Source of the DNA: Chloroflexota bacterium
Lineage (GTDB): Bacteria > Chloroflexota > Anaerolineae > Anaerolineales > Villigracilaceae
Reading direction: 5' to 3'
Length of the DNA: 38,125 nucleotides
Assembly: GCA_016866215.1 (NCBI GenBank)
Contig: VGNE01000036.1
Location: 1-38,125 of the forward strand
Made by a program: the position numbers and the translations under genes. This document shows positions 9,901-23,100 of this stretch, piece after piece. The notes under the pieces were generated by a model. That model did no database searches, had not been told where the DNA came from, and saw only the letters and a list, made by a program, of their open reading frames with translations. How positions within the stretch are numbered: position 1 is the stretch's first letter; the number at the start of each line of letters is the position of its first letter.

Positions 9901-10261
9901 TTACTTTCCGTCGGAAACCATGCCTAGTCTACGCGCTTCTTCAAGCGAGATCACTTCGGAGTTGAGGGGTTTCCCGCCTTGTGTTTGAGCGGTTCCGTTC
10001 CAAAAATCGTCTGCATGTATAGGTTCCGTTTTTTTGAGTACTGGCTTTTTTTAGCAAGGCTTCCATTTCAGGGACAGGGACTGCATCCGCGAGTTTATCT
10101 GTCTGTTTTTTAGGAGCAGGCTTGCCCTCCCGAAAAAGCATCGGGACGATGTGAGTTTGATCGAAGGGTGTCAGGAAGACAGATGAGGCGGATTGCCGAT
10201 CCAACTCTTGAAATTTTATTAAGTGCATTATAGCAAAGATTGTCAGGTAATTCCCGATCAT
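9901..10261 (-). pseudogene. Small hypothetical gene with a frameshift in an A7 run
   Basis: The frame starts at an ATG overlapping the preceding stop by 4 bp (ATGA) and reads to VPEMEALLKK. Around the two A7 runs at about 10027-10056 the sensible frame moves by one base and continues KTEPIHADDFWNGTAQTQ, then LNSEVISLEEARRLGMVSDGK to a TAA at 9901-9903. Without the shift the frame ends at 9941 with an implausible basic tail. I do not recognise the family. The homopolymer suggests sequencing error, real decay or slippage. A later start, MHLIKFQELDRQ, is also possible. Confidence 0.5.
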
Positions 10262-12183
10262 TTTTGACAGGCATCACCCTTGTTAATCGATTCGATATTC
10301 CAGAGCGGGTTGGCGGTCGGGTCAAAATCGAAATGACAAATATCCGGACGAGCCGCGGCGATCTGCGGACGATAAAACAAGGGAATGGCAGGCAGGTCCG
10401 CTGAGAAGATGATCTGAGTTTGCCGGTACGAATTGATGTAAGTCTGTTCTTCCGGCAATGAAAGTTGTGCGGCGCGGCAGGCGGAGTCAAATTCCGCATT
10501 GCTGTATCCTGTTATGTTCGTCCCGGCCCATAAATTTTTTTCAGATGGGATCTCTGCGCTGGTGAACCAGCCGCATGGGGGTTCATTGCCAATCACACCT
10601 ATTGCATATTCAGCGAGGTTAAAATTACGCCCAAAGAGGAACCCCTCGGGTCCGGAAGCGTAAAGATCATTTTGTGAAAAATATTCAACCTTGAGACCGA
10701 TGCCGCATTCTGCCAGGGACTTTTCAAGAATTTCCACCACCTGCCTGCGCTGCGGGGTCGTTGTAGTGTAATACTTCAACAGCAAAGGCGTATTGAATGC
10801 AACCGTGGCAGCTTTCACTGCGCGGCGCGGCGTGGATGGGTCGTTATCTGTGTCCTGCCAGCCAGCCAATTCGAGAAGCGAAACACCCACTTCAGGGTCA
10901 TACGGGATGGGCGTAATATTCGAGTCATACACCGGATGTTCAACTGGAATATACGTCGCCGGCACGGTGGTCATTCCAAAAAGAACACGATCCACCACCG
11001 ATTGACGGTCAAGACAATATGCAATGCCCTGGCGGGTATGCGCATCGGCAAAAATATTCTGTCTGTCTTTTTGAATATCATAACCATGATCATACGAAGC
11101 AGGTGCAAGCCCCAGCCCAAGCCATTCGATGGTCATTCCGGAATTGATGAAAACCTGCGCCTGTTCAGCGGCTTGCATTTCCTGTAATAAATTTGCCAGA
11201 CCATCAAGAGAAATGGATGGGTCGAGAATGTCACAGCGGCCGGCCACCAATTCACTCAGAGCCTTGTTCGGGTCAGGGATGAAGCGGAAAGAGAGTGTAT
11301 CAATTTTTGGAAAACCATCTGAGCTGCGGAAATAATATGGATTCTTCACCAAGCTAATGTGATCTCCCGCGATCCACTCCACGATCATATAAGGTCCCCA
11401 GCCGATCGGCGTGCGCGAGGCAATATCAATGGAAGGCAATTGATCTGCGGAAAATTCATTCCACAAATGTTTTGGGGCCGGCGCCCAAAAATTTGTGAAA
11501 TACGTTGGGTCAATAAAACCGGGCACACCCCACCATTGTACAGTTTGCGCATCGGCGGCTTCGTAGATCTGCGTGCGTTCGATCAAATAAGTATTTGCTG
11601 ATGTTTTGGCATTTGCATTAATTTCAAACGCATAGATTGAATCATCGGCGGTCAGAGGCGTGCCGTCCGCCCAAGTCAGGTCTGGGCGCAGGCGAAAGTT
11701 GACAACCATTTGATCCATCTCAAGCAAAGTCGTGCCGTCATAAGTGATGACGCAATCATCGCTGCGGCAATCAGCAGGATGCACGCGCACGCCTTGCTCC
11801 AGCGAGACCAGATTCCCATCCGCATCCACAACCTGACCTCCAGCCTGAACGGGCGTTCTGACAATTTGTGCTTCGCCGTTTTCGAGGGATGGCTTGCGCG
11901 TATAGATCACGGGCTGGTATTCATAACCGACCATGTCAAACGGGCCGTCGTTGATCGCGGCCAAGACACTGCGCGCAGCGGGATTCAATTCTCCAAAGGG
12001 ATAAAGGGTATTAGGTTCCCGCCCAAGGCACACGGTCAGGGAACTCGGGGCGGGAGACTCAGGGGTTAGTGTAGGAAAAGGCGTAAATGATTCGGTCGGA
12101 GTCTCATCCTGTGATGATAGTCTCAAACATCCAGTAAGAATGGTAATAATGATCAAAGCCAAGGGAAAAAGTTTTCTTTTCAT
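10258..12183 (-). CDS. Family-5 (oligopeptide-type) solute-binding lipoprotein, canonical order
   Basis: The start is MKRKLFPLALIIITILTGC (12183), with a lipobox LTGC at Cys19, so the protein is anchored on the outside of the membrane. A longer frame to 12219 is rejected because it buries the signal peptide. The 641-residue protein has the usual SBP_bac_5 order: N-lobe LTVCLGREPNTLYPF (49-), NFRLRPDLTWADGTPLTADD (162-), PGFIDPTYF (221-), TPIGWGPYMIVEW (258-), ELVAGRCDIL (311-), WLGLGLAP (354-), then C-lobe HTRQGIAYCLDRQSVVDRV (382-), the AECGIGL segment and DLPAIPLFYRPQ. It lies downstream of the transporter operon after a terminator and a repeat, so it may be expressed separately. The ligand is probably a peptide, by family. 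Confidence 0.9.
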   Translation of the reverse strand: MKRKLFPLALIIITILTGCLRLSSQDETPTESFTPFPTLTPESPAPSSLTVCLGREPNTLYPFGELNPAARSVLAAINDGPFDMVGYEYQPVIYTRKPSLENGEAQIVRTPVQAGGQVVDADGNLVSLEQGVRVHPADCRSDDCVITYDGTTLLEMDQMVVNFRLRPDLTWADGTPLTADDSIYAFEINANAKTSANTYLIERTQIYEAADAQTVQWWGVPGFIDPTYFTNFWAPAPKHLWNEFSADQLPSIDIASRTPIGWGPYMIVEWIAGDHISLVKNPYYFRSSDGFPKIDTLSFRFIPDPNKALSELVAGRCDILDPSISLDGLANLLQEMQAAEQAQVFINSGMTIEWLGLGLAPASYDHGYDIQKDRQNIFADAHTRQGIAYCLDRQSVVDRVLFGMTTVPATYIPVEHPVYDSNITPIPYDPEVGVSLLELAGWQDTDNDPSTPRRAVKAATVAFNTPLLLKYYTTTTPQRRQVVEILEKSLAECGIGLKVEYFSQNDLYASGPEGFLFGRNFNLAEYAIGVIGNEPPCGWFTSAEIPSEKNLWAGTNITGYSNAEFDSACRAAQLSLPEEQTYINSYRQTQIIFSADLPAIPLFYRPQIAAARPDICHFDFDPTANPLWNIESINKGDACQK

Positions 12184-12212
12184 GGTTGCCTGCCGATTTG
12201 TTATGCTGAACA

Positions 12213-12405
12213 CGGTCATACGCGAAGCGTGCGGTATTTTGCCGCCTGGTTCGCGGGGCTAAAGCCGCCTGCTCAGTACATGAAAGTCCCTTCGGACTGG
12301 CCGCTGGCGCGATGAGTCGGTTTTAACCGACTTTCATGTACTGAGGCAGGATTTTAATTCGCCGAATCCTGTTGGGCAAAAGTGCACGCTTCGCGCGTAT
12401 CCGTT
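12213..12405. repeat. Long nested palindromic element (MITE-like) between transporter genes
   Basis: The outer arms are related: TACGCGAAGCGTGC near 12220 and GCACGCTTCGCGCGTA near 12385. Inside, CTCAGTACATGAAAGTC (12272-12288) pairs perfectly over 17 bp with 12329-12345, with small hairpins at AGTCCCTTCGGACT and AGTCGGTTTTAACCGACT. The 3' part (CAGGATTTTAATTCGCCGAATCCTGTTGG) has a diverged relative at 27570-27665. No plausible coding frame was found. With the flanking bases up to the terminator it fills the roughly 320-bp gap. Confidence 0.75.
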
Positions 12406-12537: not shown

Positions 12538-13536
12538 TTATTCCACAAGCCAGCAAGCCACCAGGTGGCCAGGCTTGACTTCCTTGAATTCAGGTTCTTC
12601 CTGTGAACATTTTGCAATCGCAACAGGACAACGCGTATGGAAACGGCAGCCGCTGGGCGGGTTGAGCGGACTGGGCACATCCCCTTTGAGAATTGTACGC
12701 TCGCGCTTGAAATTGGGATGAGGGATCGGAATCGCTGAAAGCAGCGCTTTTGTATACGGATGTAACGGTTCACGATAAAGGGCATCCCGATCGGTTAATT
12801 CAACTATCTTACCCAAATACATCACAGCCACGCGGTCAGAGATGTGTTCCACCACGCTCAAGTTATGCGCAATAAAGAGATAAGTGAGTCCAAATTCCTT
12901 TTGCAGGTCTTTGAGAATATTCAAGACCTGCGATTGGATGGAAACATCCAGGGCAGAAACCGGCTCATCACAAACGATGAATTTCGGCTGTAAAGCCAAA
13001 GCGCGGGCGATGCCAATCCGCTGGCGCTGCCCCCCTGAGAACTCGTGCGGGTAGCGGCGGGCATGGTATTCTTCCAGGCCCACTTTTTTAAGCATATTGA
13101 TGGCAACTTCCCAGCGTTCCTTGGGTTGCCCAATTCTATGGATCTGCAAGCCTTCCATCACCGCTTCCCCAATCGGCATGCGAGGGTTGAGAGAGGCATA
13201 AGGGTCCTGGAAGATGATCTGCATATCGCGGCGCAAAGTCTTTAGCGATTGTGGACGCATCCTGATGATATCTTCACCATTAAAGGCCACTTCACCGGAT
13301 GTCGGCTCAATCAAACGTAAAAGGGAACGTCCAATAGTTGTTTTTCCACATCCGGATTCACCCACCATGCCCAGGGTTTCGCCGCTCTTTACCGTGAAAC
13401 TCACCTTATCCACAGCCTTTACCCAGGCTGTAGTGCGTTGTAAAATGCCGGAACGAACAGGAAAATATTTTACAAGATCTTTTACAACCAACAGATCCGG
13501 TTTCTCTTGAGTACGCATTTTTATATTCATAGCCAC
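12538..13536 (-). CDS. Oligopeptide ABC transporter ATP-binding protein (OppF/DppF type)
   Basis: The 332-residue ATPase energises import by the permease pair upstream. It shows Walker [10 protein letters not shown] near 58, Q-loop [12 protein letters not shown], signature [15 protein letters not shown], Walker [13 protein letters not shown] and switch [12 protein letters not shown]. The C-terminal extension carries [11 protein letters not shown]...C...C, the four-Cys OppD/F C-terminal domain. The [16 protein letters not shown]-terminus is typical of the F subunit. It is the last gene of the operon; an 11-bp gap separates it from the D subunit. Confidence 0.93.
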
Positions 13537-13547
13537 ATCATCTCACT

Positions 13548-14588
13548 TTAAGATTTTCTTTCGAGTTTGATCGGAGCGACGTGCTTCTCAGATTCAGAGT
13601 CCTGATAGAGCCAGCAACGTACTTCGTGTCCCTCTGCGACATCCAGTAATTCAGGACGTTTTATAGAACAGATCGATAAACCATGCTCAACACGCGCCAT
13701 GCAACGGGGAGCAAAGCGGCAGCCCGCCGGCAGATTTATCAAATTTGGAACGGAGCCGGGGATGACATCCAGTCTTTCACGGATCTCACCAAGTACCGGA
13801 ATTGAACCGATCAAACCTTTGGTGTAAGGATGAAGCGGAAGATCAAAAAGTGTCGCTACGGGAGACTGCTCAACAATTTCGCCCGCGTACATCACTGCCA
13901 CACGGTCTGCCATTTCAGCGATCACGCCCAGGTCATGGGTGATCAGGATCATAGTGGAACCCAACTGATTACGCATATCGCGCATCAAATCCAGGATTTG
14001 GGCCTGGATGGTCACATCCAAGGCAGTTGTAGGTTCATCCGCGATCAGCAAGTCAGGAACACAGGCAAGCGCCATGGCGATCATGACGCGCTGGGCCATG
14101 CCGCCGGAAAGTTCATGAGGAAAAGATTCCGCGCGCCTTTCCGGTTCGGGGATACCCACTAATTTAAGTAACTCAATGGCTCGGTTTTTGCCGGCTTCCT
14201 TGCCAAAATCCTGGTGAATGTTGAGCACTTCGGAAATTTGGTCGCCAGCACGAAAAACAGGGTTGAGCGCGGATTGGGGCTGCTGGAAGATCATCGAAAT
14301 GCGGTTGCCGCGTACCTGCATCATCTCTTCTTCAGTGGCTTTGACAAGATCCTTGCCATCAAAAAATATTTCACCAGCCTCAATTTTGCCAGGCACGCTG
14401 ATCAAACGCATGATCGAGAGGGCAGTGACACTTTTACCGCAGCCTGATTCACCTACAATGCCAAGCACTTCACCGGGGTAAACTTCAAAGTTCACACCGT
14501 CCACGGCACGCACAACACCGTCTTCGGTATAAAAGTAAGTCTTTAAATTACGTACTTCGAGCAAGGGTTTTTGATTATTCGTTGCCAC
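13548..14588 (-). CDS. Oligopeptide ABC transporter ATP-binding protein (OppD/DppD type)
   Basis: The 346-residue ATPase is partner to the OppF-type subunit. The N-terminus [27 protein letters not shown] is diagnostic of D subunits. Walker [11 protein letters not shown]-loop [11 protein letters not shown], signature [15 protein letters not shown], Walker [13 protein letters not shown] and switch [12 protein letters not shown] are all present. The C-terminal GCRFAPRC...C...C domain is present. It starts 31 bp after the second permease gene. Confidence 0.93.
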
Positions 14589-14619: not shown

Positions 14620-15618
14620 TTATAACTTCAAACGCGGGTCAAGCGCATCGCGAAGGCCATCCCCGATATAGTTGAAGGCCAGGGAACAGACAAAAATTGG
14701 AATTCCCGGCAACAGAGGCAGCCAGGGTTTGTCAAACATATAAGTCTGGGTTGCGGAGAGCATATTCCCCCAGGTGGGAACCGGGTCCTGAATACCAAAA
14801 CCAAGAAATGCAAGCGCAGCTTCTGCAACCACGTAACCGGCCAGACCGAGCGAGGCATCCACAATAATTGGAGCCATGGCGTTGGGGATCATGTGCTTCC
14901 TAATGATCCAGATATTCGAGGCGCCCAGAGATCGGGATGCTTCAACGAATGTCTGTTCACGCAATGATAATACCGTACCACGCATCAATTGTGCCGATGA
15001 GAGCCAGCCAAAACCAGCCAAAACGATGACGATCAAGACTGCATTGCGAGCGTCTCTAGGACCGAGCAGCATGATCTTTCCCACAAAAGTCAGCACCGAT
15101 TCTGGTATAGGGATCAGCTCTTGATTTCGCAAAAGCATTGAAGAGATGATCAAGAGCAGCGGCAGGGTTGGAATGGTAAGCATGAATTCCACAAAGCGCA
15201 TCAGGATGGCATCCACCCAACTGCCATAAAAGCCTGAAATTGAACCCACCAAAATTCCAATCGTCTCAGAAATAAACACGGAAAGCAATGCCACTGTCAG
15301 CGATATTCGCCCGGCATAAATTAAGCGGGAAAAATAATCACGCCCAATATTATCCGTCCCCAGGTAATGTATACGTCCCGTTGCTTCATCCACTGTCCCG
15401 AAGGGAACAAAGTATTTATTGACGTCTAATTCATCAACCTCGAAAGAGGTGATATAAGGCGCCAGAATGGTTATGATGAAAATCGCCAACATGACAGCCA
15501 TTGATATCATTGCCAGGCGATGGCGCACAAAACGCCTAAAAACGATCTGGAACGGGCTGCGCTCCTCGATGGAAACGGATTCAGCATCAAGCTTATCTAA
15601 TTGAGCAGATACAGTCAT
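14620..15618 (-). CDS. Oligopeptide ABC transporter permease (OppC/DppC type)
   Basis: The 332-residue inner-membrane permease has an N-terminal cytoplasmic stretch (SPFQIVFRRFVRHRLAMIS), a first transmembrane segment (MAVMLAIFIITILAPYI), HYLGTDNIGRDYFSRLIYAGRISL, and the EAA coupling loop EASRSLGASNIWIIRKHMIPNA for ATPase contact. It ends FNYIGDGLRDALDPRLK, the classical C-terminus. It forms the translocation pore with the B subunit 18 bp upstream. Confidence 0.93.
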   Translation of the reverse strand: MTVSAQLDKLDAESVSIEERSPFQIVFRRFVRHRLAMISMAVMLAIFIITILAPYITSFEVDELDVNKYFVPFGTVDEATGRIHYLGTDNIGRDYFSRLIYAGRISLTVALLSVFISETIGILVGSISGFYGSWVDAILMRFVEFMLTIPTLPLLLIISSMLLRNQELIPIPESVLTFVGKIMLLGPRDARNAVLIVIVLAGFGWLSSAQLMRGTVLSLREQTFVEASRSLGASNIWIIRKHMIPNAMAPIIVDASLGLAGYVVAEAALAFLGFGIQDPVPTWGNMLSATQTYMFDKPWLPLLPGIPIFVCSLAFNYIGDGLRDALDPRLKL

Positions 15619-15636: not shown

Positions 15637-16836
15637 CTAGTTTAAACGGATGCGGGGATCCACAATCGTGTATAGAATATCACGCAGGAGAGTTGCAAAT
15701 ACGGTTAAGACAGCCAGGATGAAGAAAATTGCCATCGCTACCGGGTAATCATAATCTCCCAGCGCAAGAATATACAAACGACCCATGCCCGGCCAGGCAA
15801 AGATGCTTTCGGTAATGATCGCGCCGCTGAAAAGAGCCGGTATTGTAAATACCACGATCGTAACAAACGGGATCAAGGCATTTCTAAGAGCATGTTTCAT
15901 AATAACAGTGATCTCTCTTAAACCTTTTGCACGTGCTGTGCGGACATAATCCTGACGCAAAACATCCAGCATGCTGGCGCGAATGAAACGGCTCCAGCCT
16001 GCAACATTGATCAAGGTCAGCACCGTTACCGGCAGGATTAAATGCAAAATCCGGTCTTTTGCAGAACCTGCCACCACATCACCGATCATAGGAATCGTGT
16101 AATCGCGCACGGATTCTGATAAGCCGGCAGGAATATAAGGAAGACCTGCCCCTTTGGGAATAATTGAAAACGTCAATATCAATAGCAAACCAAAGAAAAA
16201 ACTGGGCATGGCTGACCCCATAAATGCCAGGGTTGTAAAAATATAATCAAACTTGGAATATTGCCGAACGGCTGAATATATACCTAATGGAATTCCAATA
16301 AGGAGAGAGAGCATCACTTCAAGTCCAATCAACTGGAGGGTCTTGGCTAACCGGCTCTCGATCAGGTCGCTGACGGGGCGGTCACGCAAAATACGCCAGG
16401 ACAGGCCAAAATCGCCACGCAGAATACCATTGCTGGTGCGGCGGCCAACAAGGTCTTTCAAATAAACTGTTTCCTTACAGCCGACAATTTTGATCTCGTA
16501 TTCACCGCGTGAATTCAGAACTTCCGCCTCGATCGGCTTCCGGCAGCCTACTGCTACATCCGCAAAATACTCATTTCCAGCAATTACCACAGGTCCGCGC
16601 GGCATTCCGATCAACCAGCGGCTAAATCGAATCGAAAGATTTAGATCCAGTTCAAAGGAAGCGCGGATGCGCGCTATGTCCTCTTCTGTAATCTGAAACC
16701 GCCCAGATTGTGTGATTTGACGCAAGCCCGCCATAGGCCCTCCGGGTGCGAAACTCAATAATACATACGTGGCTATTGCCGAAATGAACACCACCAGTAT
16801 GGATTGCAAAACGCGGCGGATCAGATACGCGGTCAT
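15637..16836 (-). CDS. Oligopeptide ABC transporter permease (OppB/DppB type) with an enlarged external loop
   Basis: The start is MTAYLIRRVLQSILVVFIS with GGAG 6 bp upstream; the 17-codon longer frame is rejected. At about 399 residues it is longer than usual DppB (roughly 310-340). The extra length lies after the first membrane segment (about 75-150), where a small domain with PVVIAGNEYFADVAVGC and a second cysteine (IKIVGCKE) is inserted before LRGDFGLSW. The coupling loop YVRTARAKGLREITVIMKHALRNALIP and terminal VDPRIRLN are normal. The extra domain faces the binding protein and may match its unusual architecture; that is inference. Confidence 0.92.
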   Translation of the reverse strand: MTAYLIRRVLQSILVVFISAIATYVLLSFAPGGPMAGLRQITQSGRFQITEEDIARIRASFELDLNLSIRFSRWLIGMPRGPVVIAGNEYFADVAVGCRKPIEAEVLNSRGEYEIKIVGCKETVYLKDLVGRRTSNGILRGDFGLSWRILRDRPVSDLIESRLAKTLQLIGLEVMLSLLIGIPLGIYSAVRQYSKFDYIFTTLAFMGSAMPSFFFGLLLILTFSIIPKGAGLPYIPAGLSESVRDYTIPMIGDVVAGSAKDRILHLILPVTVLTLINVAGWSRFIRASMLDVLRQDYVRTARAKGLREITVIMKHALRNALIPFVTIVVFTIPALFSGAIITESIFAWPGMGRLYILALGDYDYPVAMAIFFILAVLTVFATLLRDILYTIVDPRIRLN

Positions 16837-16874
16837 AATTTCTCCAACAAAAAAGCAGAAGATTTTTATAAATT

Positions 16875-16906
16875 TTGGGGTAGACATGTCTCCATGCCTA
16901 CCCCAA
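16875..16906 (-). promoter_or_regulatory. Intercistronic hairpin after the solute-binding protein gene
   Basis: On the minus strand TTGGGGTAGGCATG pairs with CATGTCTACCCCAA (14 pairs, one G-U) around GAGA, then AAAATTTATAAAAATC. Such hairpins between a binding-protein gene and its permease genes usually trim or partly stop transcription so that the binding protein is made in excess. Confidence 0.7.
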
Positions 16907-16939: not shown

Positions 16940-18823
16940 TTAGCGGATGAACAATTGGACGTCAATGTGTTCCCATGTACCGCCGGCTTCGACGAAGGTC
17001 TTGATCTTGCCTTCAGCTTCAGCTGCTTTCAAGGTCTCATTGAGACCAGCGAGGGTCTCGGAAGCCAGAATGTCAACTTCACCACCGAGGAGGAGGCCTT
17101 CGGCGCTTTCAGGTGTGATGATCTGGATCACAAAATTTGGTGAGACAGGAGCGCTACCGACCCAATATTCATTGGCAGCGAAGACCAGCTTCTCGCCCTT
17201 GACCCATTCAACCAACTTGTAAGGACCATAGGCAAGAGGTGTCTCAGCAACACGGGGATCGGTCGCCCAATCCTTGGCGGGAAGATCACCCAACTGATGT
17301 GCGGGATAGATTCGCCATACAGGAACAAAGTATAGCGGGTCCTGAACACCGGGGATCCAGGTTTGAACGTAACCAGCAGCATCGGTGAGGAATTCAACGC
17401 TGGCGGTCTTATCGCAGGTGATAAAGGAAGTTGCGCCGGATTCGGGGTCGCAGTCAATCTTGTAACCTAATTCAAGGTCCGCGCTGGAGACGGGGGTGCC
17501 GTCTTCCCAAGTCAGGCCGTCAACGAGTTCAAAGCGGGAGACCAATTGTTTCATGGTGACGGTGCCACCAGTGAATTCAACGGTTTCACCAGCGGCATTG
17601 ATAACTGACACGCCAGCGGCAAGCTCGACCACATCACCATTGGAATCCACAACCATGGCACCAGCGGAAACCTCAACATCATTATTGGTGGTACCGCCAT
17701 TTTCGAGTGTCGGGAGTTCCTTGACCAGGGAAGCCTTGAAGTCATAGTTCAAGTGAATTTCCTGAGCAGGGCGGATGATCTGGTAGGCAATGTTGGCTAC
17801 GAAGGCATCTTCAACCAGTACAAACAAGGAAGCGGGCTCCTGTGTAAAGCCGAGGACGACGGTATCTGAACCAGCCTTGGCCCATTCCTGAACGTTGTAG
17901 TTGTAATATTCCTGTCCAGGGGCGGGAGCAAAACCGGTCAAGTCAGCCGCGGTTGCGAAGGTTTCTGTGCGGTTGAAGAGCGGAATGCTGGGGATATCTT
18001 TGGTGAATTCCTGCTGGACTATAGTGTAGGCAGCAATGCGGTCATCTTTTACAAGTGTGTTGTTTGCAAGCTTGATGTTGGAGCTGGCGAGTTCGTTACA
18101 CCAACCCATGGCATTCTGACCTTCCCAACCATTTTCAGGAAGCGGGATCTGATCGCAGGCATACAGGGTTTGACCACCGGGGTCAGCCTGACCGACCCAT
18201 GCGAAGGCGCCCAATTCATAGTCGCGGCGGGCGATACCGGTTGTGTCACCGAACCACCAGGAGGCGGGAGCGTGCAAGCGGACGACACGAACACCGCAGT
18301 CAGCCATCTGTTTTTCCCAAATGGAAGCCCAGGTCTGGCGGAAGGCAGCGGTGGTGGTGGTGAACTTGAGTGCAAGTTCATCCCCGGCGGCGTTGACGCG
18401 GAAGGTGGCACCTTCAGGAAGAGTCCATCCAGCTTCGTCAAGTAAAGCCTTACCCTTTTCAACATCGAAGGGGTAAATGGTCACGTTCTCATCGCCCGCG
18501 TAAGCCCAGTGAGCGCGCGGGATGAAGGTGTTCATGATCAATGAAGCCTGTTCTTCTTCTGTGAGAAGTGGATACACAGACTTGATCAAATCGGCTTTGT
18601 TGGTGCAGTAGGACAGAGCCTGGCGCACTTTGAGGTCACCCAGGATCGGGTGAGGTGTGGTAAAGGAAGTCTGCTCGACAACAGGGGCTTCAGTCGCAGC
18701 GGGAGCTTCAGTCGCAACGGGAGCTTCTGTCGCGGCAGGAGCCGCAGCGCCACCACAGGCACTAAGGACCATGCTGGCGATGACCAGCAGACCCAAAACA
18801 AAAAACAAACGGTTTCGTAACAT
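16940..18823 (-). CDS. Circularly permuted family-5 solute-binding lipoprotein
   Basis: The start is MLRNRLFFVLGLLVIASMVLSAC (lipobox, Cys23), with GGAGGAG 8 bp upstream; the 46-codon upstream frame is leader. A linker of ATEAP repeats (31-50) follows. The mature part then begins with what is normally the C-lobe: GDLKVRQALSYCTNKADLIK (62-), PFDVEKGKALLDEAGW (118-), DIPSIPLFNR (276-). It continues without a break into what is normally the N-lobe: DTVVLGFTQEPASLF (320-), FELVDGLTWEDGTPVSSADL (431-), PGVQDPLYFVP (491-), TPLAYGPYKLVEW (528-), LGGEVDIL (579-). It ends at WEHIDVQLFIR, the normal midpoint. All parts of a complete binding protein (627 residues) are present, but in C-N order. It is the first gene of the transporter operon. 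Confidence 0.88.
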   Translation of the reverse strand: MLRNRLFFVLGLLVIASMVLSACGGAAAPAATEAPVATEAPAATEAPVVEQTSFTTPHPILGDLKVRQALSYCTNKADLIKSVYPLLTEEEQASLIMNTFIPRAHWAYAGDENVTIYPFDVEKGKALLDEAGWTLPEGATFRVNAAGDELALKFTTTTAAFRQTWASIWEKQMADCGVRVVRLHAPASWWFGDTTGIARRDYELGAFAWVGQADPGGQTLYACDQIPLPENGWEGQNAMGWCNELASSNIKLANNTLVKDDRIAAYTIVQQEFTKDIPSIPLFNRTETFATAADLTGFAPAPGQEYYNYNVQEWAKAGSDTVVLGFTQEPASLFVLVEDAFVANIAYQIIRPAQEIHLNYDFKASLVKELPTLENGGTTNNDVEVSAGAMVVDSNGDVVELAAGVSVINAAGETVEFTGGTVTMKQLVSRFELVDGLTWEDGTPVSSADLELGYKIDCDPESGATSFITCDKTASVEFLTDAAGYVQTWIPGVQDPLYFVPVWRIYPAHQLGDLPAKDWATDPRVAETPLAYGPYKLVEWVKGEKLVFAANEYWVGSAPVSPNFVIQIITPESAEGLLLGGEVDILASETLAGLNETLKAAEAEGKIKTFVEAGGTWEHIDVQLFIR

Positions 18824-18969
18824 GGTTTTTTCTCCTCCAAGAAGAAAATCTAGGGATTGGGGTTTTGGACACGACTTAAACTTGGGCTTTTTTAATATCT
18901 CTTGCTCTACCACCTCCTTTATATATAACAATCTAAAAGGGTCCCGCAAACTAAAAAACAAGCAACCAG

Positions 18970-18997
18970 ATTATACCTAATTCTTTGGGTACGTCAA
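18970..18997 (-). promoter_or_regulatory. Promoter of the ABC transporter operon
   Basis: The minus strand reads TTGACG (18992-18997), a 16-bp spacer and TATAAT (18970-18975), a near-consensus sigma-70-type promoter. It leaves a leader of roughly 140 bases before the ATG at 18823, which contains a second Shine-Dalgarno-like AAGGAGGTGG at about 18908-18917 without a convincing start codon. Confidence 0.75.
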
Positions 18998-19264: not shown

Positions 19265-19654
19265 ATGCTCAAGGAATTCAAAGCCTTCGTCATGCGCGGC
19301 AATGTGCTGGACTTGGCCGTGGCCGTCATCATCGGCGGCGCATTTGGAAAGATCGTCAGCTCACTCGTTAACGACATCCTCATGCCAGTGATCGGACTTA
19401 TCATAGGCGGGGTTAATTTCAGCGAACGATCTCTAACAGTTGGCGCAGCCGTCATCACCTGGGGTGTCTTTGTACAAACCATTATTGATTTCCTCATCAT
19501 TGCCTTCGTCATTTTCCTCATTGTGAAAACAGCAAACAAGTTGAAGAAAGCCCCTCCGCCTACGGACCCCACGACCAAGGAATGCACTTATTGCTTCACT
19601 ACCATTTCCATCAAAGCCACACGCTGTCCGCACTGTACGTCGGAAATCAAGTAA
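19265..19654 (+). CDS. mscL: Large-conductance mechanosensitive channel with C-terminal zinc ribbon
   Basis: MscL opens under membrane tension to release solutes during osmotic downshock. The 129-residue protein starts [31 protein letters not shown] (N-terminal amphipathic helix and TM1 with the GxxxG-like packing), followed by a short periplasmic loop, TM2 ([21 protein letters not shown]) and a proline-rich linker. Instead of the usual charged C-terminal bundle helix it ends CTYC...RCPHC, a four-Cys rubredoxin/zinc-ribbon-like knuckle. The start at 19265 fits the family and has AAGGAG 7 bp upstream. Confidence 0.92.
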
Positions 19655-19738
19655 ACAACGGAACACGGGTCTCGATACGTGGCGCGGGGCGCCACTACTC
19701 GACCACCAAACACACAGCATTCATCCTTCATCTTTCAT

Positions 19739-19764
19739 CCCTTCGACTTCGCTCAGGACAAGCC
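19739..19764. repeat. CCTTCGACTTCGCTCAGGACA repeat, copy 1
   Basis: The sequence CCCTTCGACTTCGCTCAGGACAAGCC lies 10 bp before the pcrA ATG and occupies the place of its ribosome site. Related copies lie at 22798-22820, 22897-22920 and 26573-26625. Confidence 0.65.
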
Positions 19765-19773
19765 TTTCCCCTC

Positions 19774-22700
19774 ATGGACTTCCTAGACAAACTCAACCCA
19801 CAACAACGTAAAGCGGTCACAGCCGCTGATGGACCCGTTTTGATCGTAGCAGGACCGGGCTCCGGTAAGACGCGCGTATTGACTCAGCGCGTCGCGTATC
19901 TGATCGCGTCCGAAGGAGTCCGCCCGTGGCAGATCCTCGCGGTCACATTCACCAACAAAGCCGCGAAGGAAATGGAGCAACGCGTCAAAGCCATGTTGAA
20001 TGAACAGGCTGCGGAAGGCATCATGCTCGGCACGTTCCACTCCATTTGCGCGCGCATCTTGCGACGCGAAGCCGAACACCTGCCGCTTGAATCAAATTTT
20101 GTGATATTTGATTCGGATGATCAGGAACGGATCGTAAAAAACATCATCAAAGAATTGAACCTGAACGACAAGTTGTATCGCGCAGTCAGCATCCATGCCG
20201 CCATTTCACGCGCGAAGAATGAACTGATTGGCTCTGATGATTATCCAATTAATACCTATCGCGATGAAGTAGTCAAACGCGTTTACGTTGAATATCAAAA
20301 AAGATTGATCGCCAGCAACGCAGTGGACTTCGACGACCTGCTTGTTTACACCGCGCGCCTGCTCGAAGATGTGCCAAGCGTGCGCGATAAATACGCGCAA
20401 AGATTTAGGCATGTGCTGGTGGATGAATTTCAGGACACGAACCTCGCGCAATATGCGCTGGTCAAGCATCTCGCTTCGCATCACAAGAATATCTTTTGCG
20501 TTGGCGATCCGGATCAGTGTTTCCCTGCTGGCACTAAGATAAGAACTCCAAACGGGCAAAAGAAAATTGAACTATTAAAAATGGGCGATAAAGTAATCGC
20601 CGCCAGTGGTCGCGGCTCGACTATGATTTCACAAGTTTCGCATGTTGGAAAAAGAAACTTTAAAGGCGATTTGGTCGTGGCAAAGACATTCACAGGGCAA
20701 ATTATCAAAACTACGCCAAACCATATTGTTTTTGCCAGACTGGGAATGAAACCTGGGCTGCATTATGTTTACTTAATGTACCGTAAAGACAAAGGCTATC
20801 GCATCGGGGTCGCCTCTCATGCGCGCAGTGACGGAAGCGCTTTGAAGATTGGACTGCAAGTACGGAGCAATCAGGAAAACGCAAACAAGATGTGGGTCTT
20901 AAAAGTTTGTGAAGATAGAAGTGAAGCTCATTATTGGGAGGCATATTTCTCAACGGCTTACGGTATTCCGACATCCGTTTTCCATGTTCGTGGAAGAAGA
21001 ATGCGCATGTCTCAGGAATACATTGATAGATTATTCAAGGAAGTTGATACAGACACAAACTCAAGTCAACTTTTGACCGATCTCGGAATGGATTTGAAAT
21101 ATCCCCACTTCACGCCACAAGGAACCTCGCGGAATATAGTTAACTTGCGATATTTTGGAGATGGCCGAATCACAGAAGAATCTCCATGGCATGCACATCG
21201 TGTGGATTTGTGGAGCAGCGATCCAAAGCTTGCGAGGCAACTTAAGGAACTTGGATATAACCCGCGAATTAGAAGCAGGGATAATTGGCGCGTTGGAGTT
21301 AATCGCTTGCAATATGACGATATTCAGGAAGTCGCGCAAAAGTTAAGCGAATCTGCTGATGAGGCCGAAATTATTACCGGGGCTTTCCTTGTGGATAAAG
21401 GCAATTCACCGCTTGCACCGCGTTTTAATCTTATGCCAGCAAGTCATTTACACCCTGCCATGATCGTGGCGATTGAAAAAGACGGAAAAATTATTGAAGA
21501 TGAAATCGTAGAAATTTCCCGTGAGGTGTATCAGGGAACGGTTTATGATTTTGAAGTGGCAAACCTTCATAACTATATTGCAGACGGAGTTGTAGTTCAC
21601 AACTCCATTTATGCATGGCGCGGCGCAGACTATCGCAATATCCAGCGCTTTGAGCAGGATTTTCCAAATGCGCAGGTGATCCTGCTCGAACAAAATTATC
21701 GTTCGCATCAAAACATTCTGGATGCCGCCATGGGCGTGATTGACCGCGCCCATAACCGCCGTAAGAAAAATCTCTTCAGTGATCGCGGCACAGGCGAAAA
21801 AATATTCTTTTACGAATCGCGCGACGATTACGGCGAAGCCGCCTTCGTTGTGGATACCATCGCGGAACTCGTTGCCTCCAGGCAATTTGAGCCGGGTGAA
21901 TGCGCGGTGATGTATCGCACCAACGCCATGTCTCGTTTGATTGAAGAAGCATTCTTACAAGCCCGGCTTCCTTATCGACTCGTCGGCGCGCAAAGATTTT
22001 ATGGACGCCGCGAAGTTAAAGATGTGATCGCCTTTATGCGCCTCGTGCATAATCCAGTGGATGAAGCCAGCCTTGGTCGCATCATCAACGTCCCGCCGCG
22101 CGGCATTGGCGATAAAACTTTGAGCACTCTTCATTTAGTGGCGCGCCAGGCAGACACATCACCGGGCATGGTTTTGCTTGACCTCGCGCGCGGTGCAGAG
22201 TCACCTTATTACAAATCCTTTACAGGGCGCGCCGCCCTGCCTCTCGCAGATTTTGGCGGGATGCTTGCCAACTGGCGCGCCATTGCGCCAACCTCCACAA
22301 CTGTTGAACTCTTTGATCGAATCATCAAAGATATCAACTACAAGGAATTCATCACAGAAGATGAAACCGAAGAAAGCGCAGACCGCTGGGAAAACGTGCT
22401 GGAGTTGAAACGCCTCGCGCTCGAATTTTCCACGCGCACGCTGGATGAATTTCTTGAAAACATCGCGCTCGTCGCAGATCAAGACACCATCACCGATGCC
22501 AACGCGCCTACACTGCTCACCCTCCACGCCGCCAAAGGACTTGAATTCGGCGCGGTCTTCATCGTCGGTCTGGATGACGGCATCCTGCCGCACAGCCGCT
22601 CCTTCGATGAGCCTGCGCAAATGGAGGAAGAACGCCGCCTCTTTTATGTGGGCATCACACGCGCAAAAGACAGGCTTTATCTGCTCCGCGCGATTCAACG

Positions 22701-23100
22701 CGGCGGACGCGGCATGTCGGAAGAAACCTACCCCTCGCGCTTTTTGGAAGACATCCCCGCAGAACTGCTGGTTGGAAAAACACGCACGGGACGCTCTCCT
22801 TCGTCTTCGCTCAGGACAGGTATGCAAAGCCGTTCAACTTTATTTAACACAGGTGCATCATCTGACTCAAAGTGGACGCTTCCTGCCTCGCCCAAACCCT
22901 TCGATCAAACTCAGGGCAGGTCTGCTCCTGTTACGATCAGCAGATTCAAAGCTGGGACTCGTATCAAGCATCTACTGTGGGGCGAGGGTATTGTGTTGGA
23001 CAGCAGAATACAAGACAACGACGAGATCGTGGATGTAGTATTTGAGTCAGTTGGGATTAAACGCCTAGCCGCGAGTCTTGCAAATTTGACAATCATATAA
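19774..23100 (+). CDS. pcrA: PcrA/UvrD-family SF1 DNA helicase containing an intein
   Basis: This 3'-5' SF1A helicase acts in repair and replication-fork clearance. The start MDFLDKLNPQQRKAVTAADG fits the family; no ribosome site is visible because a repeat abuts it. Walker A is AGPGSGKT (26-33), motif Ia VTFTNKAAKEM, motif II DEFQD (217-221). Motif III GDPDQ/SIYAWRGAD is interrupted after Gln248 by a 362-residue intein (249-610). Then come LEQNYRSHQNIL, VMYRTNAMSRLIEEAF, GRREVKDVIAFMRL, TLHAAKGLEF and YVGITRAKDRLYL. Without the intein it has about 746 residues, a normal PcrA length. The C-terminal linker contains two repeat-derived stretches (near SPSSSLRTGM and KPFDQTQGR) before the terminal ISRFKAGTRIKHLLWGEG Tudor-like domain. 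Confidence 0.92.
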   Translation: MDFLDKLNPQQRKAVTAADGPVLIVAGPGSGKTRVLTQRVAYLIASEGVRPWQILAVTFTNKAAKEMEQRVKAMLNEQAAEGIMLGTFHSICARILRREAEHLPLESNFVIFDSDDQERIVKNIIKELNLNDKLYRAVSIHAAISRAKNELIGSDDYPINTYRDEVVKRVYVEYQKRLIASNAVDFDDLLVYTARLLEDVPSVRDKYAQRFRHVLVDEFQDTNLAQYALVKHLASHHKNIFCVGDPDQCFPAGTKIRTPNGQKKIELLKMGDKVIAASGRGSTMISQVSHVGKRNFKGDLVVAKTFTGQIIKTTPNHIVFARLGMKPGLHYVYLMYRKDKGYRIGVASHARSDGSALKIGLQVRSNQENANKMWVLKVCEDRSEAHYWEAYFSTAYGIPTSVFHVRGRRMRMSQEYIDRLFKEVDTDTNSSQLLTDLGMDLKYPHFTPQGTSRNIVNLRYFGDGRITEESPWHAHRVDLWSSDPKLARQLKELGYNPRIRSRDNWRVGVNRLQYDDIQEVAQKLSESADEAEIITGAFLVDKGNSPLAPRFNLMPASHLHPAMIVAIEKDGKIIEDEIVEISREVYQGTVYDFEVANLHNYIADGVVVHNSIYAWRGADYRNIQRFEQDFPNAQVILLEQNYRSHQNILDAAMGVIDRAHNRRKKNLFSDRGTGEKIFFYESRDDYGEAAFVVDTIAELVASRQFEPGECAVMYRTNAMSRLIEEAFLQARLPYRLVGAQRFYGRREVKDVIAFMRLVHNPVDEASLGRIINVPPRGIGDKTLSTLHLVARQADTSPGMVLLDLARGAESPYYKSFTGRAALPLADFGGMLANWRAIAPTSTTVELFDRIIKDINYKEFITEDETEESADRWENVLELKRLALEFSTRTLDEFLENIALVADQDTITDANAPTLLTLHAAKGLEFGAVFIVGLDDGILPHSRSFDEPAQMEEERRLFYVGITRAKDRLYLLRAIQRGGRGMSEETYPSRFLEDIPAELLVGKTRTGRSPSSSLRTGMQSRSTLFNTGASSDSKWTLPASPKPFDQTQGRSAPVTISRFKAGTRIKHLLWGEGIVLDSRIQDNDEIVDVVFESVGIKRLAASLANLTII
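20518..21603 (+). other. Intein in the PcrA/UvrD motif III
   Basis: The 362-residue insert starts with Cys (CFPAGTKIRTPNG, block A), has the block B TPNH at 314-317 of the precursor, block F VYDFEVANLHNYIADG, and ends VVVHN (block G) before Ser+1 of the extein. All splice-junction residues are present, so it should self-splice to restore GDPDQSIYAWRGAD. Between the splicing blocks (about 329-590) lies a large extra domain. It has no obvious LAGLIDADG motif. Its start YVYLMYRKDKGYRIG, followed by conserved Arg and Glu (YWEAYFSTAYGIPT), looks like a GIY-YIG-type homing nuclease, which is tentative. AT content and codon use differ somewhat from the flanking exteins. Confidence 0.92.
22798..22820. 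repeat. CTTCGCTCAGGACAGG repeat, copy 2, inside pcrA
   Basis: CCTTCGTCTTCGCTCAGGACAGG is read in frame as SPSSSLRTG in the poorly conserved C-terminal linker of the helicase. Confidence 0.65.
22897..22920. repeat. CCCTTCGATCAAACTCAGGGCAGG repeat, copy 3, inside pcrA
   Basis: This 24-bp copy (8 codons' length) contributes KPFDQTQGR to the helicase linker. CCCT and AGGG form its imperfect dyad. Confidence 0.65.

Follow-up and report, generated by a model that had tools for sequence, protein, structure and literature searches.

A circularly permuted family-5 substrate-binding lipoprotein in Chloroflexota and extracytoplasmic inserts in the permease subunits beside it

Natural circular permutation of a lipid-tethered substrate-binding protein (SBP) has been described for TpMglB-2 (Tp0684) of Treponema pallidum, a cluster B sugar receptor for which the designation 'Type Ic/Cluster Bc' was proposed (PMC4990184). 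In that protein the strands of the N-lobe are reordered and a crossing between the lobes is added, making four instead of three, and its authors suggested tethering as a possible reason; a change in the permease is not mentioned in the relevant sections of the paper (PMC4990184). TpMglB-2 was the only natural permuted SBP noticed in the open-licence literature searched. No natural permutation of a family-5 SBP was found in that literature, and absence from print is not proven; circular permutation is mentioned in PMC3688454 only for a permease comparison. In a preliminary description of the present locus, no description of a natural permutation in this family was said to be known. This stands for family 5 within the open-licence literature searched, with the qualification that a natural SBP permutation had already been published, in cluster B (PMC4990184).

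Family-5 SBPs, which include DppA, OppA, AppA, NikA and 2d5w, belong to cluster C. Their chain runs from the N-lobe into the C-lobe and returns to the N-lobe, so that the N-lobe comes first and both ends lie in it. The E. coli DppABCDF system is an importer of the type considered here, with a canonical DppA; a scoop of its DppB subunit (residues 32-62, TM1 to alpha-3) enters the interlobe cleft of DppA (PMC12136057). The gene layout SBP-B-C-D-F-SBP reported below is also found in Herpetosiphon-type genomes, among them G576, contig 1 of which we take to be the H. aurantiacus chromosome (PMC3368417), and there the SBP in the first slot has the canonical order.

The window, that is, the whole stretch of 38,125 nucleotides of Chloroflexota DNA that was analysed, contains an operon in the order permuted SBP-DppB-DppC-DppD-DppF-canonical SBP, led by the permuted gene (Table 1). 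The frame of the permuted SBP was open from ATG to stop across 627 residues on the minus strand (18823-16940); the plus strand of 16940-18823 was broken up by stops. The preliminary description had claimed a circular permutation in an unbroken frame of 627 residues with nothing missing, preceded by a promoter and a ribosome site and provided with a lipobox, at 4.8 kb from the canonical SBP. Comparisons of sequence, profile and structure bore out the permutation, and the frame held on the minus strand. All three signals were found, the promoter by consensus only (the scan returned 4 sites in the region where 1.6 were expected). The claim that nothing is missing was reduced to little missing, the halves measuring 309 + 267 aa as against 336 + 266 in the neighbour, and the distance was corrected to 4.7 kb.

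Table 1. Features of the permuted SBP gene and its operon (positions in the window).
Feature	Position	Strand	Remarks
Circularly permuted family-5 SBP lipoprotein gene	16940..18823	minus	627 aa plus stop
Signal peptide and lipobox	18755..18823	minus	residues 1-23, LSAC
ATEAP-rich tether	18656..18754	minus	residues 24-56
C-lobe half, first	17873..18655	minus	residues 57-317, including canonical C-terminal segment; structure 57-289 = NikA 256-474
Fusion point, old C-terminus to old N-terminus	17855..17896	minus	residues 310-323, NVQEWAKAGSDTVV
N-lobe half, last	16943..17872	minus	residues 318-627; structure 317-616 = AppA 19-265
New C-terminus WEHIDVQLFIR	16943..16975	minus	end of the strand entering the C-lobe in canonical members
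Ribosome binding site GGAGGAG	18832..18838	minus	8 nt upstream of ATG
Sigma-70-like promoter TTGACG-16-TATAAT	18970..18997	minus	11-of-12, consensus match only
DppB-type permease subunit	15637..16887	minus	
DppB extracytoplasmic insert	16474..16596	minus	residues 98-138, TM1-TM2 loop, conserved cysteines 115, 137
DppC-type permease subunit	14620..15618	minus	
Extended DppC TM3-TM4 loop	15052..15129	minus	residues 164-189
DppD-type ATPase	13548..14588	minus	
DppF-type ATPase	12538..13536	minus	
Canonical-order family-5 SBP, operon's second receptor	10258..12219	minus	whole chain aligns to 5u4o

The C-lobe blocks, from HPILGDLKVRQALSYC onward, came after the lipobox LSAC and the ATEAP-rich linker, and the first N-lobe strand, GSDTVVLGFTQEP, started directly behind NVQEWAK. 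In BLASTP against the neighbouring SBP (10258-12219), the C-half and the N-half scored 94 and 121 bits, respectively, and matched in reverse order. The Pfam profile SBP_bac_5 (PF00496) matched at 7e-37 (127.8 bits against a cut-off of 32.4) in two stretches, the best of which placed protein residues 47-221 on profile positions 199-358. Two PDB chains seen aligned, 2d5w and 4oet, matched in out-of-order pieces; for 2d5w, query residues 61-309 corresponded to chain residues 322-574 and query residues 531-625 to chain residues 208-311. By sequence, then, the original termini have been joined to each other, and the chain has been opened anew in the short segment between the last N-lobe strand and the first C-lobe helix of canonical members. 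The lobe order is the reverse of that in the canonical cluster C architecture. No permuted chain was found among PDB entries: in all four profile matches at 1e-20, of which 2d5w alone was aligned in full, the best stretches were canonically placed.

An AlphaFold2 model of the permuted SBP, built with 21 permuted sequences, had a mean pLDDT of 73 and a pTM of 0.69, with C-lobe residues 186-240 mostly below pLDDT 50. Model residues 317-616 aligned to residues 19-265 of AppA (1xoc) with Z 17.0 (240 residues, 2.9 Å) and model residues 57-289 to residues 256-474 of NikA (1uiv) with Z 16.7 (195 residues, 2.6 Å). The control, a model of the canonical neighbour (pLDDT 67.6), aligned as a whole chain (57-648 against 42-521 of 5u4o, Z 23.7). 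Each lobe of the pLDDT 73 model therefore has the family-5 fold and, with the profile cut-off passed, membership of family 5 is supported on both counts. Closure of the lobes upon each other was not shown, because the model is middling in its number of sequences and in residues 186-240. Foldseek gave low whole-chain TM scores (0.21-0.35 over 50 rows). A permutation should produce such scores in an order-preserving search, which finds the lobes separately, and they are no proof of closure.

The permuted SBP thus shares with the cluster C proteins homology in both halves, a two-lobe fold and BCDF neighbours, and differs from them in its reversed lobe order and in its new ends at the hinge. From the family topology it is inferred that each permuted lobe is one continuous stretch and that there is a single covalent interlobe crossing instead of two, with the anchor on the C-lobe side. 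Like TpMglB-2 it is a natural circular permutation of a lipid-tethered SBP, and would be the second, in this case within the large peptide/nickel family. The two are unrelated: as a family-5 homologue with its breakpoint at the hinge, the present protein lacks the Type I (cluster B) fold with reordered N-lobe strands. The permutations are also of opposite sorts, since TpMglB-2 gained a crossing whereas the cut at the hinge in the family-5 protein is inferred to have removed one.

A colinear, full-length permuted homologue was present in 26 of 101 genomes (the genome of the window, which is counted, and its relatives), with identities of 48-100%. A strict pattern scan of GTDB genomes gave 20 loci (47-90%), all in records named Chloroflexi, Anaerolineae or Anaerolineales; Chloroflexus is one example of what it failed to pick up. 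Within the class, 57 of 396 genomes matched at 1e-70, five of them without a single match across the fusion point; within the phylum, 43 of 400 matched at 1e-60, one without such a match, and 29 of these 43 lay outside the class, in two families. The permuted order also occurred in single-contig genomes, including a finished chromosome (G583) which we take to be Chloroflexus aurantiacus CP000909 (PMC2326169). Homologues are likewise permuted, in independent assemblies and single-contig genomes, and the permutation is not confined to the window's genome but is an old trait within the class and outside it. Its spread is patchy, several high-quality genomes of the window's own genus having no match at the thresholds used. 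On plasmids no permuted copy was found, none of the 104 matching records having a place that covered 80% of the query.

The architecture of the permuted protein was examined in 43 representatives, selected by thinning the available permuted frames. The linker from the lipobox to HPIL was 10-72 residues long in the 38 in which it could be measured, and the chain ended exactly 11 residues from the W in 37 of the 38 representatives with the W-E/D-H-x-D motif. In the remaining one, L121, the chain is extended at the C-terminus and no lipobox is evident. In six comparisons within the window's own group, dN/dS of the permuted SBP was 0.09-0.16; the gene is under purifying selection. Intermediates, with two C-halves or two N-halves in one frame, were sought among 181 SBP frames (114 permuted, 61 canonical and 6 partial, duplicates included) and none was convincing; one weak double N hit occurred in the canonical protein of L145.

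Of the 41 loci read (the window, L040-L059 and L107-L126), 35 had DppB as the gene immediately behind the permuted SBP, most with C, D and F following. The six permuted SBPs without DppB behind them comprised four with no BCDF genes (L118, L120, L121 and L122) and two with D and F only (L123 and L124). Counting the window, 21 loci encoded a canonical SBP in the same stretch, located either behind DppF or immediately upstream of the permuted SBP. In nine loci (L107-L112, L114, L116 and L119) the permuted SBP was the sole SBP beside the permease and ATPase genes. These are stretches of 14-20 kb with a BCDF set and include Chloroflexus (L108); the frames of L112 are broken, and in L111 a canonical SBP heads a different ABC set about 6 kb upstream. 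By its lipobox and its operon, the permuted SBP of the window fits the description of a receptor as an exported lipoprotein encoded with BCDF.

The permease subunits beside permuted SBPs carry extracytoplasmic inserts, which are reported here for the first time. Hydropathy placed them between TM1 and TM2 in DppB and between TM3 and TM4 in DppC. Loop lengths were compared in a set enlarged by 34 stretches that had been selected for similarity in DppB or SBP; this set includes the DppB fragment of L058. Beside permuted SBPs, all 35 permeases had a DppB TM1-TM2 loop of 58-70 aa; beside canonical SBPs, all 35 had one of 6-37 aa, and the two ranges did not overlap. In 11 permeases with no SBP or a partial SBP it was 6-28 aa. 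The DppC TM3-TM4 loop was 26-28 aa in 33 of 34 beside permuted SBPs and 2-11 aa in 30 of 30 beside canonical ones. The sole DppC without the loop beside a permuted SBP, that of L112, is a 171-codon fragment, and two rows with partial SBPs had DppC loops of 21 and 86 aa.

An alignment of DppB from 34 permeases beside permuted SBPs, 9 beside canonical SBPs and 8 others (the L058 fragment was omitted) contained 44 columns occupied mainly in the permuted set, of which 41 form a single run within the TM1-TM2 loop. Two cysteines of the insert were present in all 34 permeases beside permuted SBPs, in none of the 9 beside canonical SBPs and in at most 1 of the 8 others. No comparable change was seen in the ATPases, with three such columns in DppD and none in DppF. 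Nothing in the DppB model PRK10914 corresponds to the insert; the match of the window DppB to this model resumes at position 71, just past the insert, which places the insert next to the scoop. The closest DppB without an insert was that of the Herpetosiphon-type genomes (56-61% in the aligned region), where L132 combines an SBP in N-to-C order with a DppB loop of 24 aa and a DppC loop of 2 aa.

The association was further examined in 201 genomes drawn evenly from the phylum, with E values up to 1e-35 for the permuted SBP (at most six candidates scored per genome) and up to 1e-60 for DppB. The 17 genomes with a permuted SBP were exactly the 17 in which the DppB match covered the insert; a further 36 genomes had a DppB match that began after it. 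No uncoupling of permuted SBP and DppB insert was thus found in the 201 genomes at the thresholds used. A DppB tree was built from 57 of the 67 eligible rows, hits under 195 bits or 280 aa being excluded. In it the DppBs of permuted systems formed a clade (24 rows, support 99), which lay within a larger group (31 rows, 98) that also holds DppBs of canonical systems. The tree was midpoint-rooted, so the direction of change rests on the canonical rows found on both sides.

Trees of the two halves of the SBP each placed the permuted proteins in one clade (99 and 100 SH-aLRT), with support of 100 and 100 when more canonical rows were included; the AU-test set gave one clade as well. In the enlarged trees a common Chloroflexota SBP group comprised about three old lineages, of which the permuted lineage was one, nested in none of the others; this grouping had a support of 94 for the N-half and was weak at the base for the C-half (35). 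Because there is one permuted clade in both half-trees, the data agree with a single old origin; the AU tests do not fully settle whether its source was one gene or two neighbouring genes. For the first half-trees, thinning at 80% identity reduced 160 rows to 79, and the canonical rows of L002, L003, L004, L008, L010, L029, L033, L034, L035, L111 and L118 and one of L113 were left out as duplicates, cut frames or distant. The AU-test set had 47 rows and the enlarged trees 65; both lacked the canonical rows of L037, L040, L042, L043, L045, L053, L145 and L146 and 24 permuted rows of the 79.

The reading best supported is that the permuted SBP is a working lipoprotein of a Dpp/Opp-type importer, permuted at the hinge (probability roughly 0.8), with ligand, transport and docking inferred. 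The substrate is probably an oligopeptide; this too is inference, binding and delivery being untested, and the best curated hit, Opp4A, scored 115.2 bits, far below its cut-off of 650. From the family topology, the second hinge strand would end free at the C-terminus, and the lipid anchor would pull on the hinge side of the C-lobe and not on the N-lobe. Since the Chloroflexota are taken to have no outer membrane, receptors of this kind need a tether. By comparison, the permuted clade goes with added segments in both permease subunits and not in the ATPases. These inserts may refit the docking surface to a receptor with a different tether and a looser hinge. The preliminary suggestion that the permutation alters tethering and docking remains an inference and gains support from the paired DppB and DppC inserts. 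The linkage of SBP and permease nevertheless amounts to one event on one stem and is suggestive, not statistical proof; as the product of one evolutionary event in one clade, the 35 permeases on either side are not independent trials. It remains possible that the inserts arose for another reason.

A bolder reading, which could as well prove wrong as right, is that these genes encode a distinct subtype of ABC importer in which the topology of the receptor and the surface of the permease were remodelled jointly and only once. In this inferred scheme the anchor would have moved to the hinge and one of the two interlobe strands would have been cut, the two-cysteine segment of DppB beside the scoop and the DppC TM3-TM4 loop would share in clamping or docking, and the remodelled importer would then have been retained across several of the phylum's classes or families.

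The alternative that survives best holds that the permutation was structurally neutral and a single event, and that unrelated permease inserts were fixed in the same ancestor. Permuted SBPs and DppB inserts each mark single clades, so their linkage may be one coincidence, and fold and operon are otherwise ordinary. Against this, the changes lie in extracytoplasmic loops of both permease subunits and not in DppD (3 columns) or DppF (0), the DppB insert ends just before the residue at PRK10914 position 71, beside the scoop that enters the DppA cleft (PMC12136057), and no uncoupling was seen in the 201 genomes at the thresholds used. Neutrality was judged less likely than not, without being dismissed.

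An unlikely alternative is a chimera, in which the C-half came from one SBP and the N-half from a neighbouring SBP gene, with no rotation of a single gene. In its favour, canonical SBP genes are adjacent in L056, L115, L117 and L126 and stand directly upstream in some operons, and AU tests allowed the N-half to group with slot-1 SBPs (p 0.46) while rejecting this for the C-half (p 0.027). However, with more canonical rows both halves formed one separate lineage of the same SBP group (the base of the C-half tree being weak), neither half was nested inside a canonical subgroup, and in the smaller set both leaned to group G2 (N 84, C 95). A chimera of two SBPs is not supported, yet it is not fully excluded.

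There is very little to recommend the view that the permuted protein is an accessory or sensor protein beside the operon's canonical SBP and not a transport receptor. A canonical SBP does occur in the same stretch in the window and 20 other loci, and some permuted paralogues stand away from any ABC operon; in nine loci, Chloroflexus among them, the permuted protein is nevertheless the only SBP by its permease and ATPase genes. A misassembled tandem duplication or a pseudogene, which the 128-contig draft state of the window genome might have suggested, was rejected and is all but ruled out by the colinear recurrence of the order in many independent assemblies, several of them single-contig or finished, and by a dN/dS of 0.09-0.16.

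With the hinge-permuted receptor as the preferred reading, the system raises questions about the role of the hinge strands, the position required of the anchor and the co-evolution of receptor and permease surfaces. These are directly testable, since unpermuted related operons are available as controls and a cultured organism has a finished genome. Annotation that is blind to domain order hides permuted SBPs, the Pfam label being that of an ordinary family-5 SBP. No listed NCBIfam model reached its cut-off for the permuted SBP, and no curated model of a permuted family was evident in NCBIfam when the window protein and the Chloroflexus protein were queried.

Several further observations were made in the loci collected. 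The permuted SBP paralogue of L121 (8532-10982, minus) has about 150 extra C-terminal residues after the hinge strand, ending in RLYLPIINR, and some secreted-looking neighbours in L121 have similar tails, such as YLPLTMR. In L118 (8912-13977, plus), a divergent permuted SBP is followed by a 958-aa frame composed of a phosphonate-binding domain and a canonical-order family-5 SBP. L138 (7931-9175, minus) encodes a free-standing permuted-type C-lobe, 54% identical, in a 415-aa frame without an N-half; its genome (G625), which we take to be Roseiflexus sp. RS-1, also encodes a full permuted SBP. A second DppD-DppF-like ATPase pair follows the operon's canonical SBP in L048, L050, L051 and L053.

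Between the window and L040, dS was 0.61 for the permuted SBP, 1.25 for DppB and 2.19 for the canonical SBP; the low value for the permuted SBP hints at a possible expression-linked constraint on its codons. Elsewhere in the window (19582-23100, plus), a frame of 1172 aa encodes a UvrD/PcrA-type helicase interrupted by an intein, with junctions at DPDQ/C...HN/SIYAWRG and with matches to Pfam Intein_splicing (3.6e-11) and Hint between the helicase parts.
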